DNA of 64,000 nucleotides from Bacteroidales bacterium (GTDB lineage: Bacteria > Bacteroidota > Bacteroidia > Bacteroidales > Tenuifilaceae): assembly GCA_016931855.1 (NCBI GenBank), contig JAFGDZ010000034.1, forward strand, positions 1 through 64,000, written 5' to 3'. Position 1 is the first letter of the stretch; each line of letters opens with the position of its first letter. A program made the translations under genes and the position numbers. A model generated the notes under the pieces. The model was not told the DNA's origin, did not search any database, and was given only the letters and a program-made list of their open reading frames with translations. This document shows, piece after piece, positions 7,425 through 19,021 of the stretch.

Positions 7425-8591
7425 TTAGTTCCTTGCGCTGCTTAGCTCCATAAGAATATCGTACTCAACCATACGAACGTTGCGCTCAATTTCGGCAATA
7501 TCAATAAGCGAAATTAGAACAGGAGTGTGCACCAGCCTAGGGAGTCCGGTTAAATAGCTCTCTATAATCATGCTTGTGCGCTGGGTTTGCGCATAGGCCT
7601 TAAGCACCTCATTGTAACGGCTAACCGCATCAGTAATTTGATTGCCAAAACCTTGCGATAGCATAACCCTATTGGTTGCCCTGTCGCTTTCTAAACGGCG
7701 GGAATCTATGGTTAGCGAGTCGCCAATCTCATGAAGCAGCTTCATTCTTGCCAGCTCCAAAAGCGCAATAAGCTCATTAGATTGACTCTTGATCTCACCA
7801 ATAGCCGATACGGCTGCTGTATCGGTAATGGTCTCTGTATCCTGAGCAATGAGCTTGCTAACCACAAGAGCCGTTTTGTACCTGTTAATGTAGTTCTCCT
7901 TAACATCGTAGGAGTAGCTAATGCTAGAGCGCATTAATAGCACCGATGCTGCAATTACAATAAGGAGTATAACCATGGGGACTTTTTGCCTGTTGGGGGC
8001 ATTTCGGAAAATGGAGAGCACATAAGCGGGGAAGAACCCCACAACAAGCGCAACCTGACCAAATATCAGCATGATTTTAGCACCGGGCCAGTGCATAATT
8101 TTAAATAACAAGCCCAGTAGCATTGCCGCGGCAACGGTAAACCCAATTGCCGATAGCGCCATGCTAAGCTTAGACGGATCCTCCTTGTAGCTGGTATAGA
8201 AAAGCGTAGGCAAAAACGCGAAAACAATTAGCACCGATGCTAAAAGTATTGCCACCCCTGCACCTGGCAGATGATAGGTTTTAAACAATGCCCCTGTTAC
8301 CATTAGTATGGCGCTAAGCGCACCCAGAATGTAAGTTGATTTTTTCATTGCCTGAAATTTTAGGTTTTCCGATAGTAGAATTTTATGTTGCAAGTTGCCT
8401 AGCCTATCCAGCTTAAAGGTATCAACAACCATATTGTAAGCACCTTTAAAGTTGGTATCTAGCAAAGGGTTTTCCTCAACAAGGCATCCAATATGGTCGG
8501 CCAGTTCCAATCGAATGTGCTGCTCGGTTACACCCTTAAGCTCTAAGTCGGTAAGAATATACTCGAATTCAAACTCGCTTAGCTGTCTCAT
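7425..8591 (-). CDS. PadR-linked membrane protein with GldL-like hairpins
   Basis: A 388-residue membrane protein translated from an ATGA overlap with the upstream PadR gene. Residues 1-80 are a helical cytoplasmic domain (ELADHIGCLVEEN near 29-41) that looks like the HAAS/DUF1700-type sensing domains commonly paired with PadR regulators. Residues 86-221 hold five membrane segments with an internal repeat: GALFKTYHLPGA (100-111) and GLLFKIMHWPGA (160-171), a motif seen in GldL-type Bacteroidota proteins. Residues about 230-388 are a long helical, probably periplasmic, region reminiscent of the GldM N-terminal helical domain. The function is unknown; membrane stress sensing with PadR is an inference. 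Confidence 0.7.
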   Translation of the reverse strand: MRQLSEFEFEYILTDLELKGVTEQHIRLELADHIGCLVEENPLLDTNFKGAYNMVVDTFKLDRLGNLQHKILLSENLKFQAMKKSTYILGALSAILMVTGALFKTYHLPGAGVAILLASVLIVFAFLPTLFYTSYKEDPSKLSMALSAIGFTVAAAMLLGLLFKIMHWPGAKIMLIFGQVALVVGFFPAYVLSIFRNAPNRQKVPMVILLIVIAASVLLMRSSISYSYDVKENYINRYKTALVVSKLIAQDTETITDTAAVSAIGEIKSQSNELIALLELARMKLLHEIGDSLTIDSRRLESDRATNRVMLSQGFGNQITDAVSRYNEVLKAYAQTQRTSMIIESYLTGLPRLVHTPVLISLIDIAEIERNVRMVEYDILMELSSARN

Positions 8592-8923
8592 TTTACAGGG
8601 TATGGTTGGAGAATAAGCTGCATTGTATTCACAAAATCCTCAAACTCATCTACCAGAGCCTGCGCCCAGCTAACCCCTTCGGGAGTTAGCGAGTAGTAAA
8701 TTCTTACCCGCTTACCAATATGCACCTTTTCCGTTACCAAATAGCCCTCGGCCTCCAGCTTATGGAGAACAGGGTATAGCGCACCAAAGGTTAGCTTAAC
8801 CTTTCCGCCAGAAAGATCCTCCACCTTCTGCGTAATCTCGTATCCATAAAGCCTCTTATTCTCCTTAAGTAGCTTAAGCACTATGGTACGAAGGGTTCCT
8901 TTTAACAAATCGTTCGATATCAT
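8588..8923 (-). CDS. PadR-family transcriptional regulator
   Basis: A 111-residue winged-helix regulator. The order is typical of the family: a helix ending GTLRTIVLKLLKENKRLYGYEI near 10-31, a recognition region KLTFGALYPVLHKLEAEGYLV near 47-67, and the wing segment GKRVRIYYSLTPEG near 74-87, followed by a C-terminal helix for dimerisation. PadR proteins repress their own promoter together with a co-transcribed membrane protein. The 4-nt overlap with the following membrane protein and the palindrome over the promoter (8929-8955) fit that model. Confidence 0.88.
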   Translation of the reverse strand: MISNDLLKGTLRTIVLKLLKENKRLYGYEITQKVEDLSGGKVKLTFGALYPVLHKLEAEGYLVTEKVHIGKRVRIYYSLTPEGVSWAQALVDEFEDFVNTMQLILQPYPVK

Positions 8924-8928
8924 GGCAT

Positions 8929-8974
8929 CTTATATATATGCAGCTAATATATAAGTTTATTTTATATTAATCAA
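8929..8974 (-). promoter_or_regulatory. PadR promoter with overlapping palindrome
   Basis: Plus 8929-8937 CTTATATAT and 8947-8955 ATATATAAG are perfect 9-bp inverted arms around a 9-nt centre. On the minus strand the arm nearer the gene overlaps the expected start site. The other arm covers a -7 box TATATTAG (plus 8944-8951), with a -33 TTG at plus 8972-8974 (20-nt spacer). This is the expected position for an autoregulatory PadR operator. Confidence 0.55.
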
Positions 8975-8981
8975 TAGAGCC

Positions 8982-9008
8982 AAAAAAAACGCACCAATTT
9001 ATGGTGCG
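8982..9008 (-). terminator. Terminator of the envelope operon
   Basis: A 7-bp stem (plus 8990-8996 with 9002-9008, loop 5 nt) is followed on the minus strand by eight T residues. It lies 22 nt after the OmpA-type gene's stop codon. Confidence 0.75.
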
Positions 9009-9030
9009 CTTCCTTAGTAAAGCAAATGCT

Positions 9031-11397
9031 CTATATTCCAGTTATAGTAAACTCAACCCTACGGTTTTGAGCCCTACCGGCAGCCGTTTTGTTTGTTGCC
9101 TTAGGCTTGCCCATTCCGTAGCCTTTAGCTGTAATACGCGATGCATCTACACCCATCATAATGGCATAGTTTGCAACCTCTTTAGCCCGCTGCTCAGAAA
9201 TGCGCTGGTTGATATCGGTTCCCCCAACATTATCGGTATGACCGCCAATCTCGACCTTAACGTTAGGATACTCCTTCAAAAACTCAACAAGAGCGTTTAG
9301 GGATTTGAACGATTCAACCTTAAGCGTACTCTTGCCTGTTTCGAAGTAGATATTCTCAATGTTAACAGATTGTCCAACCTCAATTGGAGTAACATAGAAA
9401 TTTTTTGGAATTACAGTACGTGCAGCGACCTTAGTTAAATCCACAGGTTCGTACTTGTTATAAAAGTTCTTAACCGATGGGGTTAAGTCGTACGACAAGC
9501 CTATTGGCAACTTAAGCTTATAGGTTGACGAGGTAGTGTCGAAGCGGAACGCATCGGACTCAACTCCATTAATTTTAAGCCTAACCTTAATGCCAGCTTC
9601 AAGCGGTTTTCCTGTTTTTGTGTTGATAACAGAACCCTCAAGTGTGGCTATGTTCGCGTCCTTACGCTCAGCAAAAACATTTGTTGGTATTGTGGTAAAC
9701 TCGGTATAAGTGCTTAAATCGATGTTGTTATCAACAGTATTATAGCTTGGCGATGCTATGCCCAGCTTGTACTGAGCGCCAAAGGGAAGGTTAACGCTAA
9801 AGGCTCCCGTTAAAGAGTCTATTTGGATAGAGTCGGCCACAACGCCATCAATAACCAGTTTTGGAGAACTTTCGCCAAGTATTGGGGTAAATGTTGCATT
9901 GTCCATGGCAACGCCATTAATGCGTACCCAAGGTACAGAGGTAACATTAAGCACAACCTCCTTCTCAACATAAGAGCGCTCTGCGGTAACATCAACCGTA
10001 TCAACAGTAGTTGTAAAGTTGGGTACATTAGCACTAAAGGTGTACTTCTGACCTAACGGAAGCAGCGCTTGGAATGCAGAAGAGTACAAATCGAACTTAA
10101 CAGAGTCTGACTCCTCGCCGTTAATAAGAATCCTTGGATTCCTTTCCATTGGCAGCTGCTGATTTGTTCTGGTGTTCACAATTTTACCCTTAACCAGCAC
10201 AAACGGAATTGAGGTAAAGTAAAGGTTTACGCTTGTCTCGGTGTACTCCTTAAGGTTTGTAGCATCAATATCGGTTGAGATACCGTTCCAGCTGTCCATT
10301 TCGGGCTTAAGGGTGTATGCAGCTCCCAAGGGAAGGGTAACCTCATAGGTTGCGGCCACTTTATCAATCGTAATTTTATCCCACTCCTTGCCGTTAACCA
10401 GTACTCTATAAGCTGTATCGGCAAGCATAAGGGTTTGATCGGCCTGATTAAGGATTAACCCGCGAACCTTAATGAATGGATTTTCCTCAAAAATTTTAAC
10501 GCTAAAAATATCGGCTTTGCCTGTTGAGTTGGTAACTGAGCTAAAGTAGGCCCAGCTGCCCTTCTCGTTTTGCTTGTAGTATGAATCCCAGTTTGCAGTG
10601 TTAATTGGCTCGCCAACAGGAACGGGTTTGGACCACTTGCGGTACTCGCCATCGCTAACCTGATTGCAGTAGTAGAAGTCCATGTTCTTTCCATCATCTA
10701 CATTAGAGGCAAAGAACAGCACTTTCTTATCGGGGGTAACGTAAGGCGCCTCATTTGTGCGTCCATCATTAACGTTCCCGTTAAGCATTTTAGGCTTGCT
10801 GTACTTCCATTCGCCAATACGTTTAGATACGTAAATGGAGTGCTTGCGGCTATTGGGGCTAGGGGTAATGGCAAAGAAAAGCAGCTCGCCATCGGCAGTC
10901 ATATAAGCGTAGCTTCCGCGGCCCCTATCCTTCCGGTGAATTCGGCGTACTTTTATTGGTTTTGGGTTAGACCATGTGTTCTCGTCAATGCGCTCAACAA
11001 CCGATATTCCCCGGCCAACCCATTCGGTTCCCCTGGCATTAAAAGAGCCGCTAACAACAAAGGTGTTTCCATCGTTAAGGGCGGAAAGAATGGCGTTGTA
11101 CCTTGCCATATTTACGTTGCCAGGGAGGCGCTTGGCCTGCGACCATGTACCATCGGAGTTTTTGGTGCTGCACCAAATATCCTGGCTATTATCGGTACCA
11201 AAGGTGTTCTCGGGGTGGTTAACCCTGCTAAAATATAGCGTATTACCATCGGTTGATATTACTGGGTTCACCTCGGCATATTCGCTATTAACCGCAGGGC
11301 CAAGGTTTACTGGCTTAAACGATGTTTGGGCAAACAGGCAACCAGCGAGTAGCACCAGAAACAGTATTGGTAAAAAGGTTATGGATATCTTCTTCAT
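9031..11397 (-). CDS. PD40 / four-repeat / OmpA envelope protein
   Basis: A 788-residue exported protein with a signal peptide ending near residue 23 (LFAQ). Residues about 30-305 hold PD40 (WD40-like) beta-propeller units: VISTDGNTLYFSR, YMTADGELLFFA, YVTPDKKVLFFA. Residues about 309-671 contain four tandem units of roughly 90 residues, each with a LxxNGxEx(D)... strand followed by LPLG/LPFG/LPIG and an aromatic. Residues about 680-788 are an OmpA-type peptidoglycan-binding domain (FETGKSTL, GHTDNVGG, RISEQRAKEV, NRRVEF). It is the last gene of a three-gene operon and probably anchors an outer-membrane assembly to the wall. The layout resembles the T9SS protein PorE, but the four repeats differ. 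Confidence 0.82.
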   Translation of the reverse strand: MKKISITFLPILFLVLLAGCLFAQTSFKPVNLGPAVNSEYAEVNPVISTDGNTLYFSRVNHPENTFGTDNSQDIWCSTKNSDGTWSQAKRLPGNVNMARYNAILSALNDGNTFVVSGSFNARGTEWVGRGISVVERIDENTWSNPKPIKVRRIHRKDRGRGSYAYMTADGELLFFAITPSPNSRKHSIYVSKRIGEWKYSKPKMLNGNVNDGRTNEAPYVTPDKKVLFFASNVDDGKNMDFYYCNQVSDGEYRKWSKPVPVGEPINTANWDSYYKQNEKGSWAYFSSVTNSTGKADIFSVKIFEENPFIKVRGLILNQADQTLMLADTAYRVLVNGKEWDKITIDKVAATYEVTLPLGAAYTLKPEMDSWNGISTDIDATNLKEYTETSVNLYFTSIPFVLVKGKIVNTRTNQQLPMERNPRILINGEESDSVKFDLYSSAFQALLPLGQKYTFSANVPNFTTTVDTVDVTAERSYVEKEVVLNVTSVPWVRINGVAMDNATFTPILGESSPKLVIDGVVADSIQIDSLTGAFSVNLPFGAQYKLGIASPSYNTVDNNIDLSTYTEFTTIPTNVFAERKDANIATLEGSVINTKTGKPLEAGIKVRLKINGVESDAFRFDTTSSTYKLKLPIGLSYDLTPSVKNFYNKYEPVDLTKVAARTVIPKNFYVTPIEVGQSVNIENIYFETGKSTLKVESFKSLNALVEFLKEYPNVKVEIGGHTDNVGGTDINQRISEQRAKEVANYAIMMGVDASRITAKGYGMGKPKATNKTAAGRAQNRRVEFTITGI
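9385..10473 (-). repeat. Four tandem protein repeats in the OmpA-type gene
   Basis: The stretch encodes residues 309-398, 399-488, 490-579 and 582-671. The units share a strand pattern with a short conserved NG-x-(E/V)-x-D element, an F/I-D element and an LPxG-x-x-Y motif. The DNA itself is diverged, so this is an old duplication visible only in the protein. Confidence 0.65.
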
Positions 11398-11433
11398 AAT
11401 TTTCTTTTCATTTTTTAGTTACAGCAACCTAAA

Positions 11434-12792
11434 CTACCTATAAGGAAGCCCTGCTGGTGGAACTACCCTTCCAAACACTAGGTTCATACCAATGCGAATG
11501 TTTCCATTGGTAAACTTAAACGGATCGATGAGTGGGTAAAGATTATCGGCCACAACATAGATTTGGAATGGGCCAGGCTTAACAACCAGTCCTAGCCCCA
11601 AGTTGGTAAGGGTTCTCTGGTTTGCCGATACGCTGGCGAGTAAGTTTAGGAAGCGCCCTGCCCCTTGGGTTAGCGAAATGGTAAATGCTGGGTAGAACTT
11701 ATGGTTGTAAACAGCATAGAATGATGCTCCAAAATGGGTTCGACGGGCTATTTGATAGTTGGCGGCAAGGTAAAACTTAGGAGCAAGCCATGTTCTGTAG
11801 CTCTTAGCTGTTTTCTCGTCGTCAAAGTTATCCATAAAATCCTCTAGCAAGGAATCGGGATCAGTTTCTCTATTGTATAGCCAATCGCTTAGCGCATCTA
11901 ATCCGTGAAAGGTATCGCTACCCTTAACGCGATAGTTCATTACGCTATCCTTCCAGTTAATAAACCCAAGGTCGGAAATGGCTACCGTAAAGGTTGTTCG
12001 GCTATCGTAGCTGTAGGAAGCGCCCATGCTAAGAGCGTATCCACGGTTTTTTAAGCGCGAGAAGTTATCGAGAGCCCAATCGCCATCAGCATGGTCAAAG
12101 TCGGGTTCGTTGTACTTATTCCGGGGTATGCCAGCAGTGTTCATTACCGCATTGGCACTAAAGGTGTGTGCATAGGTTGAGTCCTGAATCTTTATGCTTA
12201 GGTCATCGGGGTTAAACTGTACGTTAGCTAACCCGTAAAGCATGCTAAACCTTCCTCCAAAAACCCATTTCTTGTATGATTTAGATGCCCCAATGGTGGT
12301 TTCTAAGTACTGCGAAAGGTTGATTGTTGTGTTGGACAGATCTACCGTTTTTCCAATGTAGGCTCCATTGCCCTGTACGGCCAATCCAACAAGATCCTTT
12401 GCATAAGTAAGCTGATTATCGGAATGAATTCTTGCGCCAAACCAGTAAAACCAGTTATCGGACTTAAACCTAAGGTGGAACAAATCAACATTAAAGTTGG
12501 CCTGAAAAAGGTTCTTATCCTTTGATTCCTTAAAAAACTGTTCGGGAAGCAGCGCTACCTCGTTATCCCTCTCCTCAAACACATCGGCAGGAACTACTCC
12601 ATTAAATATGAACTGCCCATATATGCCCGATACGCCAGGGAGCCCAATACTTGTGGTAAACTCGGGGCGAACAACGGGATTTATGTAGCTGGACTGAAAA
12701 ACATCTTTAAACATTGGTAAAGAGAGTTCCGATTGAGCAAAGGAACTAAATCCAGCAAAGGCTATGATTAGTGTGTAAAATATCTTTTTCAC
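11434..12792 (-). CDS. DUF5723 family outer-membrane protein
   Basis: A 452-residue protein with a cleavable signal peptide (FSSFAQ, residues 14-19). The N-terminus SSYINPVVRPEFTTSIGLPG matches what I know of DUF5723 proteins. The rest is rich in alternating hydrophobic strands with aromatic ends and finishes in a membrane-barrel-like strand, as expected for an outer-membrane beta-barrel. It sits between the lipoprotein gene (5 nt away) and the PD40/OmpA gene (36 nt). The family function is unknown. Confidence 0.72.
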   Translation of the reverse strand: MKKIFYTLIIAFAGFSSFAQSELSLPMFKDVFQSSYINPVVRPEFTTSIGLPGVSGIYGQFIFNGVVPADVFEERDNEVALLPEQFFKESKDKNLFQANFNVDLFHLRFKSDNWFYWFGARIHSDNQLTYAKDLVGLAVQGNGAYIGKTVDLSNTTINLSQYLETTIGASKSYKKWVFGGRFSMLYGLANVQFNPDDLSIKIQDSTYAHTFSANAVMNTAGIPRNKYNEPDFDHADGDWALDNFSRLKNRGYALSMGASYSYDSRTTFTVAISDLGFINWKDSVMNYRVKGSDTFHGLDALSDWLYNRETDPDSLLEDFMDNFDDEKTAKSYRTWLAPKFYLAANYQIARRTHFGASFYAVYNHKFYPAFTISLTQGAGRFLNLLASVSANQRTLTNLGLGLVVKPGPFQIYVVADNLYPLIDPFKFTNGNIRIGMNLVFGRVVPPAGLPYR

Positions 12793-12797
12793 GGCAA

Positions 12798-14453
12798 CTA
12801 CTTGTTAGGTTTAATGGTTCCTTTCATTCTCACGGTAAGAAGGAGGTCAATCTCGTTAGTGGATAGGATTTTAACGTTCTGTTGCTCCTCTCCACCTGTA
12901 TTAACCGTGTAAACGGCAATCATCTGGGATGCATCAGCCATTAAATCGTACTTGGCTTTTTTTACATGAACGGTTGTTACGTTTGGTGTTTTGCCAGATG
13001 CTTCTCCATTTGCTCCTATAGGGGCACTTTCCAAGAACGGCGTTAACTCCGTTCCTTCAAAAAGAGCAGTAAGGGTGTTACCATTATCATCGGCAAAGAG
13101 TATCTGCAAGTTCATGTCAAGGGGCAGCCCATTATTGAAGATGAAGCGGAGCTCCACATCAAGGGACTGCTCGTCAACCTCACCTAAATCATCAATCTCA
13201 GGCCACTCTATATTCTCCGTGGTATCCCTTAATACTAGTGTTGTGGCCCAACCCTCAAGCGGAACCTCAATGTTTGATATAAAGTTGATTTTGCTATCGT
13301 GCCTAACAAACTGATCGTGGTTGGCCATCCCCTCGCCCAGGGTAAAACTTGCTCCATAGTTTAGCTGGTTTGGAGCAATATCAAAAACAGTCTCAATATT
13401 TGAGTTACTCGCATCTAAAACGTAGCTGGAGACTCCGTACAAAGAGGATTCTGTTGCTGGAGCCATATCGTTAGGTAAGCTAACCTTTAAGTCATTACTC
13501 TCTAGCGCTCCTTCATTTTGTATTACCACTAAACTGTCATTGTTCCTGTTTGCAAATTCAAACTTGAACAGCGACATAGAGGCAGGAACTCCAAACCCAT
13601 TCTCTATAGTAAGCTCGAGTTTGGGATTTGCAAGACTCATCTCGGCAATGTAAGCCGAGCTAAAAAGGTCAATGGGAGTGTACAGGTAGTCGGTATCAAA
13701 GGTGTAGTTAAACGCACCCCTAATCTCGCTAAAAACCAAGTTTGAGAGCGATACATCAACAGAAATCCCTTGCCCAGTAATAATTCCTGCGGTACTGCTG
13801 GTTGTTATGGTAGCAGAAACAGTGTATGCAAAGCTATTGTATGTAGAATTTGAGGTGTTGTGCAAGTCCAGTACACGATTCGCCAAGGATATTGGAATGC
13901 TAGCAAAGCCATTCGCTTCAATAGTAAAGGGTACTACAACCGAAGTCCCTCCTATATCTTTTAGTGATACAAACACTAAGTTACCAGATACTGGATGGCT
14001 AAAAGTATTGGTCATGTTAATTTGTAACGAGCCAGAAGAAAGGCTAATGGACTTAAGTTCAGCTCCATCAATTGCAGAGAATGACTCCTCAAACGACTCC
14101 TCGTAGCTATACTCAACACCTGCCTCTGTGAGAGGAATACTAGGATAAGGCCATTCAACGCCTTCCGAGAAAGACTGGGATGGAATAGCAAACCGATCAC
14201 TAGCCAAGCCAAATTCAGTAGTATCTCTAAACGTAAGGTAAAACTGGTTAGTTCCTTCGTAAATACCAACAATGGTATTCTCATCGCCACGCTCAACAAG
14301 CTCCTTAAATGTAATTGATGAGTTAATTACAGGGAATGCCATGTCGGTATTAATTGGATCAATGGTAATGTTATCAAACTTGGAAAAGTCGTAACAACTA
14401 GTCACCAATCCAAATAAAGCCAACCCTACAAGTGTAATAGGTATTCGTTTCAT
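12798..14453 (-). CDS. Large lipoprotein of the envelope operon
   Basis: A 551-residue protein with a lipoprotein signal peptide whose lipobox is LVTSC, followed by YDFSKFDN. An ATG nine codons upstream also exists, but the signal peptide begins at the start given here. The mature protein is rich in Ser, Thr, Asn and beta-strand patterns and shows no catalytic motif. The near N-terminal segment IDPINTDMAFPVINSSITFKEL is a pattern I have seen in uncharacterised Bacteroidota lipoproteins. It is the first gene of an operon with DUF5723 and the OmpA-type protein, which suggests a surface-exposed partner of that pair. Confidence 0.7.
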   Translation of the reverse strand: MKRIPITLVGLALFGLVTSCYDFSKFDNITIDPINTDMAFPVINSSITFKELVERGDENTIVGIYEGTNQFYLTFRDTTEFGLASDRFAIPSQSFSEGVEWPYPSIPLTEAGVEYSYEESFEESFSAIDGAELKSISLSSGSLQINMTNTFSHPVSGNLVFVSLKDIGGTSVVVPFTIEANGFASIPISLANRVLDLHNTSNSTYNSFAYTVSATITTSSTAGIITGQGISVDVSLSNLVFSEIRGAFNYTFDTDYLYTPIDLFSSAYIAEMSLANPKLELTIENGFGVPASMSLFKFEFANRNNDSLVVIQNEGALESNDLKVSLPNDMAPATESSLYGVSSYVLDASNSNIETVFDIAPNQLNYGASFTLGEGMANHDQFVRHDSKINFISNIEVPLEGWATTLVLRDTTENIEWPEIDDLGEVDEQSLDVELRFIFNNGLPLDMNLQILFADDNGNTLTALFEGTELTPFLESAPIGANGEASGKTPNVTTVHVKKAKYDLMADASQMIAVYTVNTGGEEQQNVKILSTNEIDLLLTVRMKGTIKPNK

Positions 14454-14759
14454 GCTATTTGGGTTATTTGCAAATTTCAATGTAAAGATAGTCCATTAAA
14501 TGTAAAATATAATTAGAAGAAGATCAATAAGTGAATGGAATAAAATACCCAACGTAGCCAATCATTACGCTAATTTTGAACCATAACCAAAGTCTCCTCT
14601 ATCAGCCAGTTCCCAACTCCCATTATTTTTGTAATATTGTACCCATTCTTATGTACTTGTACACAAAATATTGTAACCCTTTTTTAGTTATAGTAAATAC
14701 GCTATTGCAACAGCGTTACCAAACAGCATAAACAACAGACCCAGGATAAACTTTTTTAG
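14454..14759. other. Divergent promoter region of the envelope operon and porW
   Basis: No gene is present. The region is AT-rich. It contains the palindrome TGTACTTGTACA at 14652-14663, flanked by two direct copies of AATATTGTA at 14633-14641 and 14667-14675. These could be regulator sites for porW. No clear TAnnTTTG -7 box is visible on either strand. Confidence 0.5.
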
Positions 14760-17461: not shown

Positions 17462-19021
17462 ATGAGCATACAAATACTTTGGGTTGACGATGAGATTGAC
17501 CTTTTAAGGCCACACATTATTTTCCTTGAGGAAAAGGGCTATGCCCTTACTACAGCCAATAGCGGTAACGACGCCATTGATATAATTAGAACCCAAACCT
17601 TTGATTTGGTTTTCTTGGATGAGAATATGCCCGGACTAACGGGACTTCAAACCCTTGCCGTTATTAAGGAGATAAAACCCACCCTGCCCGTTGTTATGGT
17701 AACCAAGAGCGAGGAGGAGAACATAATGGATTTGGCAATAGGCTCCAAAATTGCCGATTACCTAATTAAGCCCGTTAGCCCCAAACAGGTTCTTCTATCC
17801 ATAAAAAAGAACGTACATAGCAAGCAGCTGGTTACCGAAAAAACTACAACCGATTACCGAGCGGAATTTGGCGTAATAGGGCAGCTAATTGCCTCCGCAA
17901 ATACCTTTGACAGCTGGGTTGAGATATACAAGAAACTGGTAACGTGGAGCATTCAAATAGCCGAATCATCGGATCCTAGCATTGGGCAAGTACTAGAGAT
18001 GCAGTGGAGCGAAGCAAACAACGAGTACGGCAAGTTCATTAAACGCAACTACACCACCTGGTTCGATAAAAAGGAAGACGAAAAGCCGCTTCTATCGCCC
18101 AGCCTGCTCCGCAGCAAGGTATTCCCAAAAATTGATGCGGGGAAAAAAGTGCTACTGCTCCTTATAGATAATCTACGTTACGACCAGTGGAAATCCATAG
18201 AGCCAATCCTAACACCCTACTGGCGAGTAGAAAAGGAAGAGCTCTTTTGCAGCATTCTCCCCACAGCAACGCAATACGCTCGCAATGCCATTTTCAGTGG
18301 ATTAATGCCCCTCGAGATACAGAAACTCTACCCTAACATGTGGATTTTTGACGAGGAAGAATCTGGGAAAAACCTTTACGAAGAGGAGCTTCTTAAGAAG
18401 CAAATTCAGCGCTATGGCAAGCAGTACAAGCTGTACTACGAAAAAACCAACACCATTAAGGCTGGTCAGAAAATTATGGATAACCTTAAAAATATCCTTA
18501 CCAACGACCTCACCGTACTGGTTTACAACTTTATTGATATTATATCGCATGCCCGAACCGATGTTGAGTTCATGCGCGACCTTGCCAGCGACGAAGCTGC
18601 TTACCTCTCGCTAACCAAATCGTGGTTTCTGCACTCAGATCTGTTAGCCCTGCTAAAAGCGGCTGCGGAACAAGATGTTACCCTTATAATTACCACCGAC
18701 CACGGCACCACAAAGGTTAGCAACGCCGTTAAGGTTGTTGGCGACCGTGCCACATCTACAAACCTAAGGTACAAGCTAGGTAAAAACCTAAACTACGAAG
18801 CTAAACAGGTTTTTGAGATACGAAAACCAGAAGAAATTCACCTGCCCAAACCAAATGTGAGCTCATCGTTTATATTTGCACTCGGAAACGATTTCTTTGC
18901 GTACCCAAACAACTACAACCACTACGCTAAGTACTACAAGAACACGTTCCAGCACGGAGGCGTTTCCCTTGAGGAAATGATTGTTCCCTTTATTGAACTA
19001 AAACCTAACGAGCAGCGATGA
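17462..19021 (+). CDS. porX: T9SS response regulator PorX
   Basis: Response regulator fused to a PglZ/alkaline-phosphatase-like domain. It controls T9SS gene expression with the kinase PorY and sigma factor SigP and also acts on oligonucleotides or cyclic nucleotides. The receiver domain spans residues 1-120, with acidic DDE at 9-11, phospho-acceptor Asp53 in FLDENMPG and the conserved Lys in YLIKPVSP. The PglZ domain (about 200-519) contains DNLRYDQW, a candidate nucleophile Thr in PTATQYARN, TDHGTTK, and a final His in FQHGGVSLEEM. Its stop codon overlaps the start of tsaE (ATGA). PorY is not in this window. Confidence 0.93.
   Translation: MSIQILWVDDEIDLLRPHIIFLEEKGYALTTANSGNDAIDIIRTQTFDLVFLDENMPGLTGLQTLAVIKEIKPTLPVVMVTKSEEENIMDLAIGSKIADYLIKPVSPKQVLLSIKKNVHSKQLVTEKTTTDYRAEFGVIGQLIASANTFDSWVEIYKKLVTWSIQIAESSDPSIGQVLEMQWSEANNEYGKFIKRNYTTWFDKKEDEKPLLSPSLLRSKVFPKIDAGKKVLLLLIDNLRYDQWKSIEPILTPYWRVEKEELFCSILPTATQYARNAIFSGLMPLEIQKLYPNMWIFDEEESGKNLYEEELLKKQIQRYGKQYKLYYEKTNTIKAGQKIMDNLKNILTNDLTVLVYNFIDIISHARTDVEFMRDLASDEAAYLSLTKSWFLHSDLLALLKAAAEQDVTLIITTDHGTTKVSNAVKVVGDRATSTNLRYKLGKNLNYEAKQVFEIRKPEEIHLPKPNVSSSFIFALGNDFFAYPNNYNHYAKYYKNTFQHGGVSLEEMIVPFIELKPNEQR

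Follow-up and report, generated by a model that had tools for sequence, protein, structure and literature searches.

A PadR-coupled membrane protein related to GldL and GldM: a candidate envelope-sensing module of Bacteroidota

In a 64,000-nucleotide stretch from a Bacteroidales bacterium (Tenuifilaceae; assembly GCA_016931855.1, contig JAFGDZ010000034.1, positions 1-64,000), hereafter the window, the gene for a PadR-family winged-helix regulator (padR, 8588-8923, minus strand, 111 residues) is followed by the gene for a 388-residue membrane protein (7425-8591, minus strand). The latter joins in one chain a helical N-terminal domain (N-domain), two hairpins of the type found in GldL and a transmembrane helix with a periplasmic domain of the type found in GldM. 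The homologies and the coupling of the two genes are firmly supported, and the combination is real and, as far as searched, undescribed: the openly licensed PMC literature, judged by titles and the starts of abstracts, yielded no description of a PadR gene arranged with GldL/GldM-like parts. The reading favoured here, to which a probability of about 0.6 is given, is that of a self-contained, autoregulated, envelope-sensing module in which PadR would be paired with a membrane sensor related to the GldLM motor.

The regulator gene recognised by the first-pass annotation matches PF03551 at E 1e-17 (64.3 bits against a cut-off of 27), and the translational coupling proposed there is seen in the 4-bp overlap (ATGA, 8588-8591) of the padR stop codon with the start codon of the downstream gene. 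A protein search of the genome found no second match to this PadR at E 0.001. Within the membrane protein, residues 1-82 (8346-8591) make up the N-domain, a putative PadR partner with a conserved DH...C...E motif that is predicted to be cytoplasmic; the hairpins span about residues 84-137 (8181-8342) and 141-197 (8001-8171), and residues 201-388 (7428-7991) comprise the GldM-type transmembrane helix and first periplasmic domain, recognised by profile and structure matches, all on the minus strand.

A scan of GTDB species genomes gave at least 524 stretches encoding a relative of the query, and the titles of the best 80, which were kept, all name Bacteroidota taxa. Together with L001, L005, L008 and L020 these constitute the 84 loci examined, while loci L002-L031 were used in part only and many of them repeat the same places. 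The 84 primary proteins were divided into group A1 (52 proteins of 350-440 residues, the window protein included) and group A2 (26 of more than 440), with six of less than 350 residues excluded (L035, L072-L075, L096); group A5 is made up of second proteins: 24 of the 26 A2 loci yielded one, and the 23 that are complete were kept.

Profile searches detect a relationship to both GldL and GldM. The two GldL-type hairpin motifs attributed earlier to the window protein are both present. Pfam GldL_N (PF22827) is matched in two stretches at E 5.1e-9, with 36.6 bits against a cut-off of 24, and the loops read FKTYHLPGA (residues 103-111) and FKIMHWPGA (163-171). Taken alone, the second hairpin scores 32.1 bits and the first 14.1, which is under the cut-off, the first being placed also by a hairpin hidden Markov model (HMM) and by the helices of the structure model. 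GldL_N is found at E 0.01 in all 101 family proteins (52/52 of A1, 26/26 of A2 and 23/23 of A5). The hairpin HMM, trained on the same proteins in which hairpins were then counted, gives two hairpins in 51/52 A1 proteins, three in 26/26 A2 proteins and two in 23/23 A5 proteins; the A1 exception, L064, has three, and a second module gene comes after it. Further, the family profile reaches GldL among the PDB sequences at E 4.4e-6. By sequence, the module hairpins are homologous to GldL.

Central to the motor is the glutamate E49 of GldL, which carries protons and is essential (PMC8986121). The corresponding position, counted as the 19th residue beyond the phenylalanine of the loop, holds a glutamate in 13/13 GldL loci from this bacterial family, L015 and L016 being duplicated in the list and the 13 being distinct, and is acidic in none of the 229 module hairpins (105 of A1, 78 of A2 and 46 of A5); the second hairpin of the window protein has a leucine there. 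A motif-based count, which caught 159 of the 183 hairpins of A1 and A2 where the repeat count took all 229 of A1, A2 and A5, likewise found the position acidic in 0/159. Eight of these 159 hairpins carry an acid elsewhere in the stretch after the loop, with that of L063 one residue ahead of the E49 place. Such acids, the homology to a proton motor and the ratio of five hairpins to two GldM units that a three-gene form described below would give could speak for a machine still driven by ions through other residues. Given a position that is non-acidic in every module hairpin, and the requirement of GldL for E49 (PMC8986121), such a machine seems very improbable. Since the membrane part is devoid of the proton-carrying glutamate, it is proposed to act as a conformational sensor and not as a motor.

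The GldM-like helical region suggested for the rest of the protein holds up well. Against the PDB sequences, the best matches of the A1 profile are GldM/PorM (E 1.7e-13, profile positions 211-404), and over 247 genomes its C-terminal half matches GldM, with the GldM of the window's own genome, which adjoins GldL, at E 5.2e-18. An AlphaFold2 model of the window protein built from 52 sequences (predicted local distance difference test, pLDDT, 90.8; predicted template modelling score, pTM, 0.73) finds GldM in Foldseek at a best E of 8.5e-4, and VIA-align superposes it on 7sau_A (GldM) with Z 19.9 over 185 residues at 2.9 A; the top nine entries of that ranking are all GldM/PorM (Z 14.6-19.9), the first unrelated one having Z 11.5. 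Individual sequences carry a fainter signal, with the window protein alone at 18.5 bits for GldM_1st, below the Pfam cut-off of 25, and the domain found at E<=0.01 in 27/52, 18/26 and 10/23 proteins of A1, A2 and A5. In the second proteins (A5), the consensus helix LALNVSK is near the LALNVS or LALNMSKEVL of collected GldM. On the strength of profile and model, the relationship to the transmembrane helix and first periplasmic domain of GldM is real homology and strong for the family. The GldM of the same genome carries all GldM domains; none of the 52, 26 and 23 proteins of the three groups matched GldM_2nd, GldM_3rd or GldM_4th at E 0.01. With E49 missing and GldM domains 2-4 unmatched, the module protein is, as judged from its sequence, neither GldL nor GldM, and it scores 25.8 bits against a cut-off of 68.3 for the full-length GldL equivalog TIGR03513.

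Two forms of the module exist. In the three-gene form, the first protein has three hairpins and a GldM unit, and the second has two hairpins and a GldM unit without an N-domain. One of each would bring together five hairpins and two GldM units, so that a heterodimer would match the ratio of the GldL5M2 motor (PMC8986121, PMC9389320). The window has the two-gene form, whose homodimer would hold 4:2, and the 5:2 match may therefore be chance for the family overall. That the three-gene heterodimer forms a pseudo-GldL5M2 ring and shaft that uses no protons and gates PadR as a sensor, and that a single-chain sensor of this kind may have been the ancestor of the secretion motor, is a tentative and rather doubtful extension.

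The pairing with padR is a conserved trait of the family, as a PadR frame lies directly upstream on the same strand in 79/84 loci; with the start codons chosen, 48/79 pairs overlap and 69/79 overlap or lie within 5 bp. Of the five loci without a PadR upstream, three (L034, L047 and L062) have a contig end close to their start. Neighbour clustering, in which the module's own cluster absorbed phosphatases via their hairpins and SpoIIE was counted apart, found no other neighbour family in more than 12/84 loci; since the other neighbours vary, the recurring unit is padR with one or two module genes. A relative at L120 (1499-2794, minus strand) has GldL-type hairpins (GldL_N E 7.3e-5, just under the cut-off) together with a part that weakly resembles GldM (GldM_1st E 0.049); it is possibly an independent branch, and GldM_4th had no match in its genome, G067.

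What, then, could link the membrane protein to PadR? The N-domain is a candidate. Its mean pairwise identity in the family is 0.40, next to 0.39 for the hairpins and 0.16 for the periplasmic part, and a conserved N-domain and membrane part joined to a variable periplasmic part would resemble the pattern of many sensors. The first-pass annotation saw here a probable HAAS-like sensing domain, for which profiles give no support: Pfam HAAS (PF22564) matched 0/52 A1 members at E 0.01, the window protein among the unmatched, and hhalign of the N-domain against eight local HAAS sequences gave a probability of 0.8%. Two N-domain subsets, A3 (42) and A6 (37), were picked by hand; for the 42 N-domains at E 5, HAAS was not among the 25 of 39 families listed. 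The window N-domain has no GxP, the mark of the kinked third HAAS helix, and the N-domain profile found nothing convincing among the PDB sequences (best E 0.31). DUF1048/2O3L, a HAAS reference according to PMC11237479, was not among the structural matches listed, which excludes nothing. In the model, the N-domain of the window protein has helices at residues 6-18, 24-40, 48-58 and 61-81, with a mean pLDDT of 72.9 that falls mostly below 50 after residue 62.

An indirect link to HAAS is what survives. The NCBIfam permease prefix domain 1 (NF038403), which precedes PadR-linked permeases and which we read as HAAS, matched 14/37 N-domains of the module at a threshold of E 0.5, with a best E of 4.9e-8 and no match to the N-domain of the window protein, and 16/42 when permeases and short forms are counted in. 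Moreover, the A1 profile finds the N-domain ahead of MacB/FtsX permeases in G212 and G172 (E 8.6e-20 and 2.9e-19), and these permeases lie directly behind a PadR gene, the PadR frames having been read by eye. As the HAAS profile is unmatched and the N-domain is shared with PadR-linked permeases, it is therefore named a PadR-partner domain, one that may work like HAAS and is not, by sequence, a HAAS member. A PadR-like frame followed by a MacB/FtsX permease with the module N-domain is the layout of L112 (1950-4998) and L113 (1875-4911). Short forms at L114 (2081-2689, plus strand) and L115 (2580-3008, minus strand) consist of a PadR-like frame and then a 202- or 142-residue protein with the N-domain and poorly conserved hairpins, in which no GldM part was matched.

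The 9-bp palindrome reported upstream of padR is indeed present, as CTTATATAT-N9-ATATATAAG with arms at 8929-8937 and 8947-8955, and a perfect repeat of 9 bp or more never arose when the 120 bp before padR were dinucleotide-shuffled 50 times. Its casting as the autoregulatory site needs revision, as the element common to the padR upstream regions is a 21-bp inverted repeat, ATAYNTAA-N5-TTANRTAT, found in the window at 8947-8967 (minus strand) as ATATAAAA-TAAAC-TTATATAT with a score of 22 of 24, and this is the proposed PadR operator. It shares the half-site 8947-8954 with the palindrome, whose other arm at 8929-8937 is a third half-site, and L032, the closest relative, has a similar arrangement of three half-sites. 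Of the upstream regions, taken from 78 of the 79 loci with PadR, 28 reach the top score (24) and 52 score at least 22, where dinucleotide shuffles to which the same pattern was applied would give 0.3; because the pattern was derived from the regions in which it was counted, the enrichment is descriptive. With the threshold lowered to 20, 73 loci qualify at a spacing of 5 and 31 at each of the runner-up spacings, and 4.6 loci qualify in the shuffles. Among 300 control regions, which precede other long open reading frames of the same loci, six scored 22 or more, and all six sites lie within a padR upstream region read from the divergent gene. A test for perfect repeats, for which no pattern is used, gave p<=0.05 in 22/78 regions. 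Overall, a shared repeat before padR is well supported.

A covariation of PadR residue 46, in the recognition helix, with the half-sites was considered as evidence for the operator and set aside. Phenylalanine, tyrosine or tryptophan goes with T-type half-sites in 25/25 cases and glutamate with C-type half-sites in 21/22, five mixed TA/TT loci standing outside the count; in L058, the exception, the PadR frame departs from the others after residue 33. In the PadR tree (51 rows, L058 excluded), one branch separates the two labels completely, and the covariation therefore counts as one event.

In the window, the proposed operator overlaps a possible promoter, TTG-N20-TATATTAG (8944-8974, minus strand), read from the sequence, which we take to fit the Bacteroidota -33/-7 consensus. 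A sigma-70-type scan gave TTGATT-17-TATATT at 8974-8946, with 5 sites in the region against 3.4 expected. Further upstream, a stem-loop with a T run, resembling an intrinsic terminator (8987-9011, minus strand; the inverted repeat is computed and the T run read by eye, and a pattern scan of the region did not report it), lies between an OmpA-type gene and padR, so that the padR/module pair is probably under its own promoter.

In the favoured reading, PadR would bind the conserved 21-bp operator, located at the promoter, and in this way repress its own operon. The membrane protein, expressed together with PadR, would hold its PadR-partner domain in the cytoplasm and its domain akin to the first of GldM in the periplasm, with two GldL-like hairpins and a GldM-like helix crossing the membrane between them. 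A change in the periplasm or the membrane would shift the helix bundle, upon which the cytoplasmic domain would bind or release PadR and the operon would be induced. The first transmembrane helix of GldL runs from in to out, the second from out to in, and the helix of GldM from in to out (PMC8986121); by analogy, the N-domain, PadR and the linkers at residues 133-141 and 196-206 would be cytoplasmic, and the FKxxHWPGA loops and the GldM-like domain periplasmic. We infer the topology, the contact of PadR with the protein, its binding to the repeat, the autoregulation and the signal with its sign, whereas the gene coupling, the homologies, the absence of E49 and the conserved inverted repeat before padR draw directly on sequence or model. 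Of the membrane-signal module in the first-pass annotation, the homologies and the PadR pairing thus stand, and signalling would be the role deduced from them.

Alternatively, the membrane protein could be an effector and not a sensor: PadR itself would detect a compound and derepress an envelope-protective protein, a role of the kind suggested for PadR operons of Listeria. The palindrome has no close copy in the genome (with up to three mismatches allowed, two other sites, both with three), so that PadR probably has few targets. In Listeria, PadR-type repressors, two of which mainly regulate their own operons of transmembrane proteins, are considered to respond to envelope-acting compounds (PMC6624303). 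An N-domain as conserved as the membrane part, and shared with PadR-linked permeases, points instead to a contact with PadR, and the effector role appears unlikely.

Several observations weigh against the envelope-sensing module preferred here. The variable periplasmic domain could equally be that of a fast-evolving effector. L084 and L091 have enough flank and no adjacent PadR, and the L120 variant has neither the N-domain nor an adjacent PadR. L080 shows no recognisable repeat (score 15), the window's own copy is imperfect, and to these add the derivation of the repeat pattern from the regions counted and the single event behind the residue 46 covariation. The identity of the N-domain with HAAS finds no support from Pfam, hhalign or N-domain structure, and a fold search with the low-confidence model of the window N-domain returned nothing above Z 4.7.

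Given the homology of the hairpins and the GldM unit to motor parts, it is also conceivable that the protein joins the type IX secretion motor in an accessory or inhibitory role, as a non-conducting copy that enters GldL/GldM assemblies in a dose set by PadR. The lysine and histidine of the first hairpin loop are invariant across the 52 two-gene (A1) proteins, and GldM_4th, the C-terminal domain of GldM, is present at E 0.001 in 70/78 carrier genomes (33/38 and 37/40). This last figure is no more than the class rate (57/61 genomes listed as of the same class, same order or the window's own), and co-occurrence was set aside as uninformative about a type IX association. In the window's genome, contig C2 carries the true GldL and GldM next to each other (L117), and the module is on another contig. 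The A1 profile was matched over nearly its full length in at least 2/247 sampled near-complete genomes, a lower bound with at most seven candidates scored per genome, although GldM_4th is found in 58/247; the secretion system therefore does not seem to need the module. A motor subunit is, on balance, quite improbable.

How the module and the motor are related by descent bears on the earlier statement that the protein is built from gliding or type IX motor parts, of which the homology to GldL and GldM stands. In a tree of 114 C-terminal regions (17 GldM N-termini from 32 loci searched, and the 97/101 module C-termini that passed a length filter), GldM is set apart from all other rows by one branch (100/100), and the module proteins show more diversity than the sampled GldM. 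From this greater diversity and the single GldM group, the secretion motor may descend from a single-chain sensor; as the tree lacks a root, ancestor and derivative cannot be told apart, and the direction implied by that statement does not follow.

Among known systems, the GldLM/PorLM motor resembles the module in two parts: the hairpins are homologous to GldL_N, and the transmembrane helix with the periplasmic domain corresponds by homology to GldM domain 1, almost from end to end of that domain. The module differs in being fused in one chain, coupled to PadR and off the gldLM contig, without E49, without matched GldM domains 2-4 and without a cytoplasmic tail of the GldL type after the hairpins. 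The same genome also has a PadR gene next to proteins that combine a helical domain and a membrane part (L121, 500-3009, contig C28), where the HAAS profile does match (PF22564, E 4.1e-7) and the membrane part is what we take from its sequence to be PspC-like, in place of GldL/GldM parts. In the published HAAS-PadR dyads, HAAS is fused to multi-transmembrane domains, and the layout of a MacB/FtsX permease behind PadR is described (mSystems 2024, PMC11237479). The module shares with them a padR directly before a multi-transmembrane protein with a small helical N-domain that is also found before MacB/FtsX permeases; its N-domain misses the HAAS profile, and a motor-related membrane part is not among the fusions named in the available part of that source. 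In Listeria, the transmembrane protein of one PadR operon is a relative of FtsW/RodA without detectable FtsW/RodA function (PMC6624303). This LstR-Lmo0421 type, by analogy the nearest functional parallel found, likewise combines an autoregulated PadR operon (shown in Listeria, proposed for the module) with a non-canonical copy of a protein from a core envelope machine, albeit in another phylum and with another machine.

The surroundings of the module are varied. SpoIIE-like phosphatases lie near it in 11/84 loci. Four of them, at L067 (2144-3517), L087 (2164-3546), L088 (1998-3374) and L101 (2171-3586), all on the minus strand, are of the SpoIIE type (E 1.4e-16 to 2.1e-21) and are encoded by a gene divergent from padR; the hairpin HMM matches each of the four twice, and Pfam GldL_N is matched in 2/4. 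At L087 and L101, padR and the phosphatase gene both have the repeat in the 120 bp before them. In the window, the minus strand upstream of padR (9031-14480) encodes an OmpA/PD40 protein (788 residues), a DUF5723 protein (452 residues) and a 560-residue open reading frame; the order from this frame through DUF5723, OmpA and padR to the module recurs in G022 (L153) and not in the closer relative L032. About 8.5 kilobases from padR, a gene at 17462-19021 (plus strand) encodes a response regulator with a PglZ domain (PF00072 5.3e-22, PF08665 3.4e-23), an architecture that is presumably that of the type IX regulator PorX; it had no match at E 1e-8 in the compared loci, among them the regions of G022 and G071 that surround the module.

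If the favoured reading is true, the design of the GldLM rotary motor would also be in use outside secretion, in a regulatory setting, as a single chain and without the proton-carrying glutamate. The module would then be a natural 'dead motor' for comparison with GldLM and a route to the question of how that motor originated. The reading also gives a family that is widespread in Bacteroidota, chiefly in metagenome-assembled genomes, its first functional hypothesis, and the sequences suggest that many Bacteroidota may use a motor design as a sensor.

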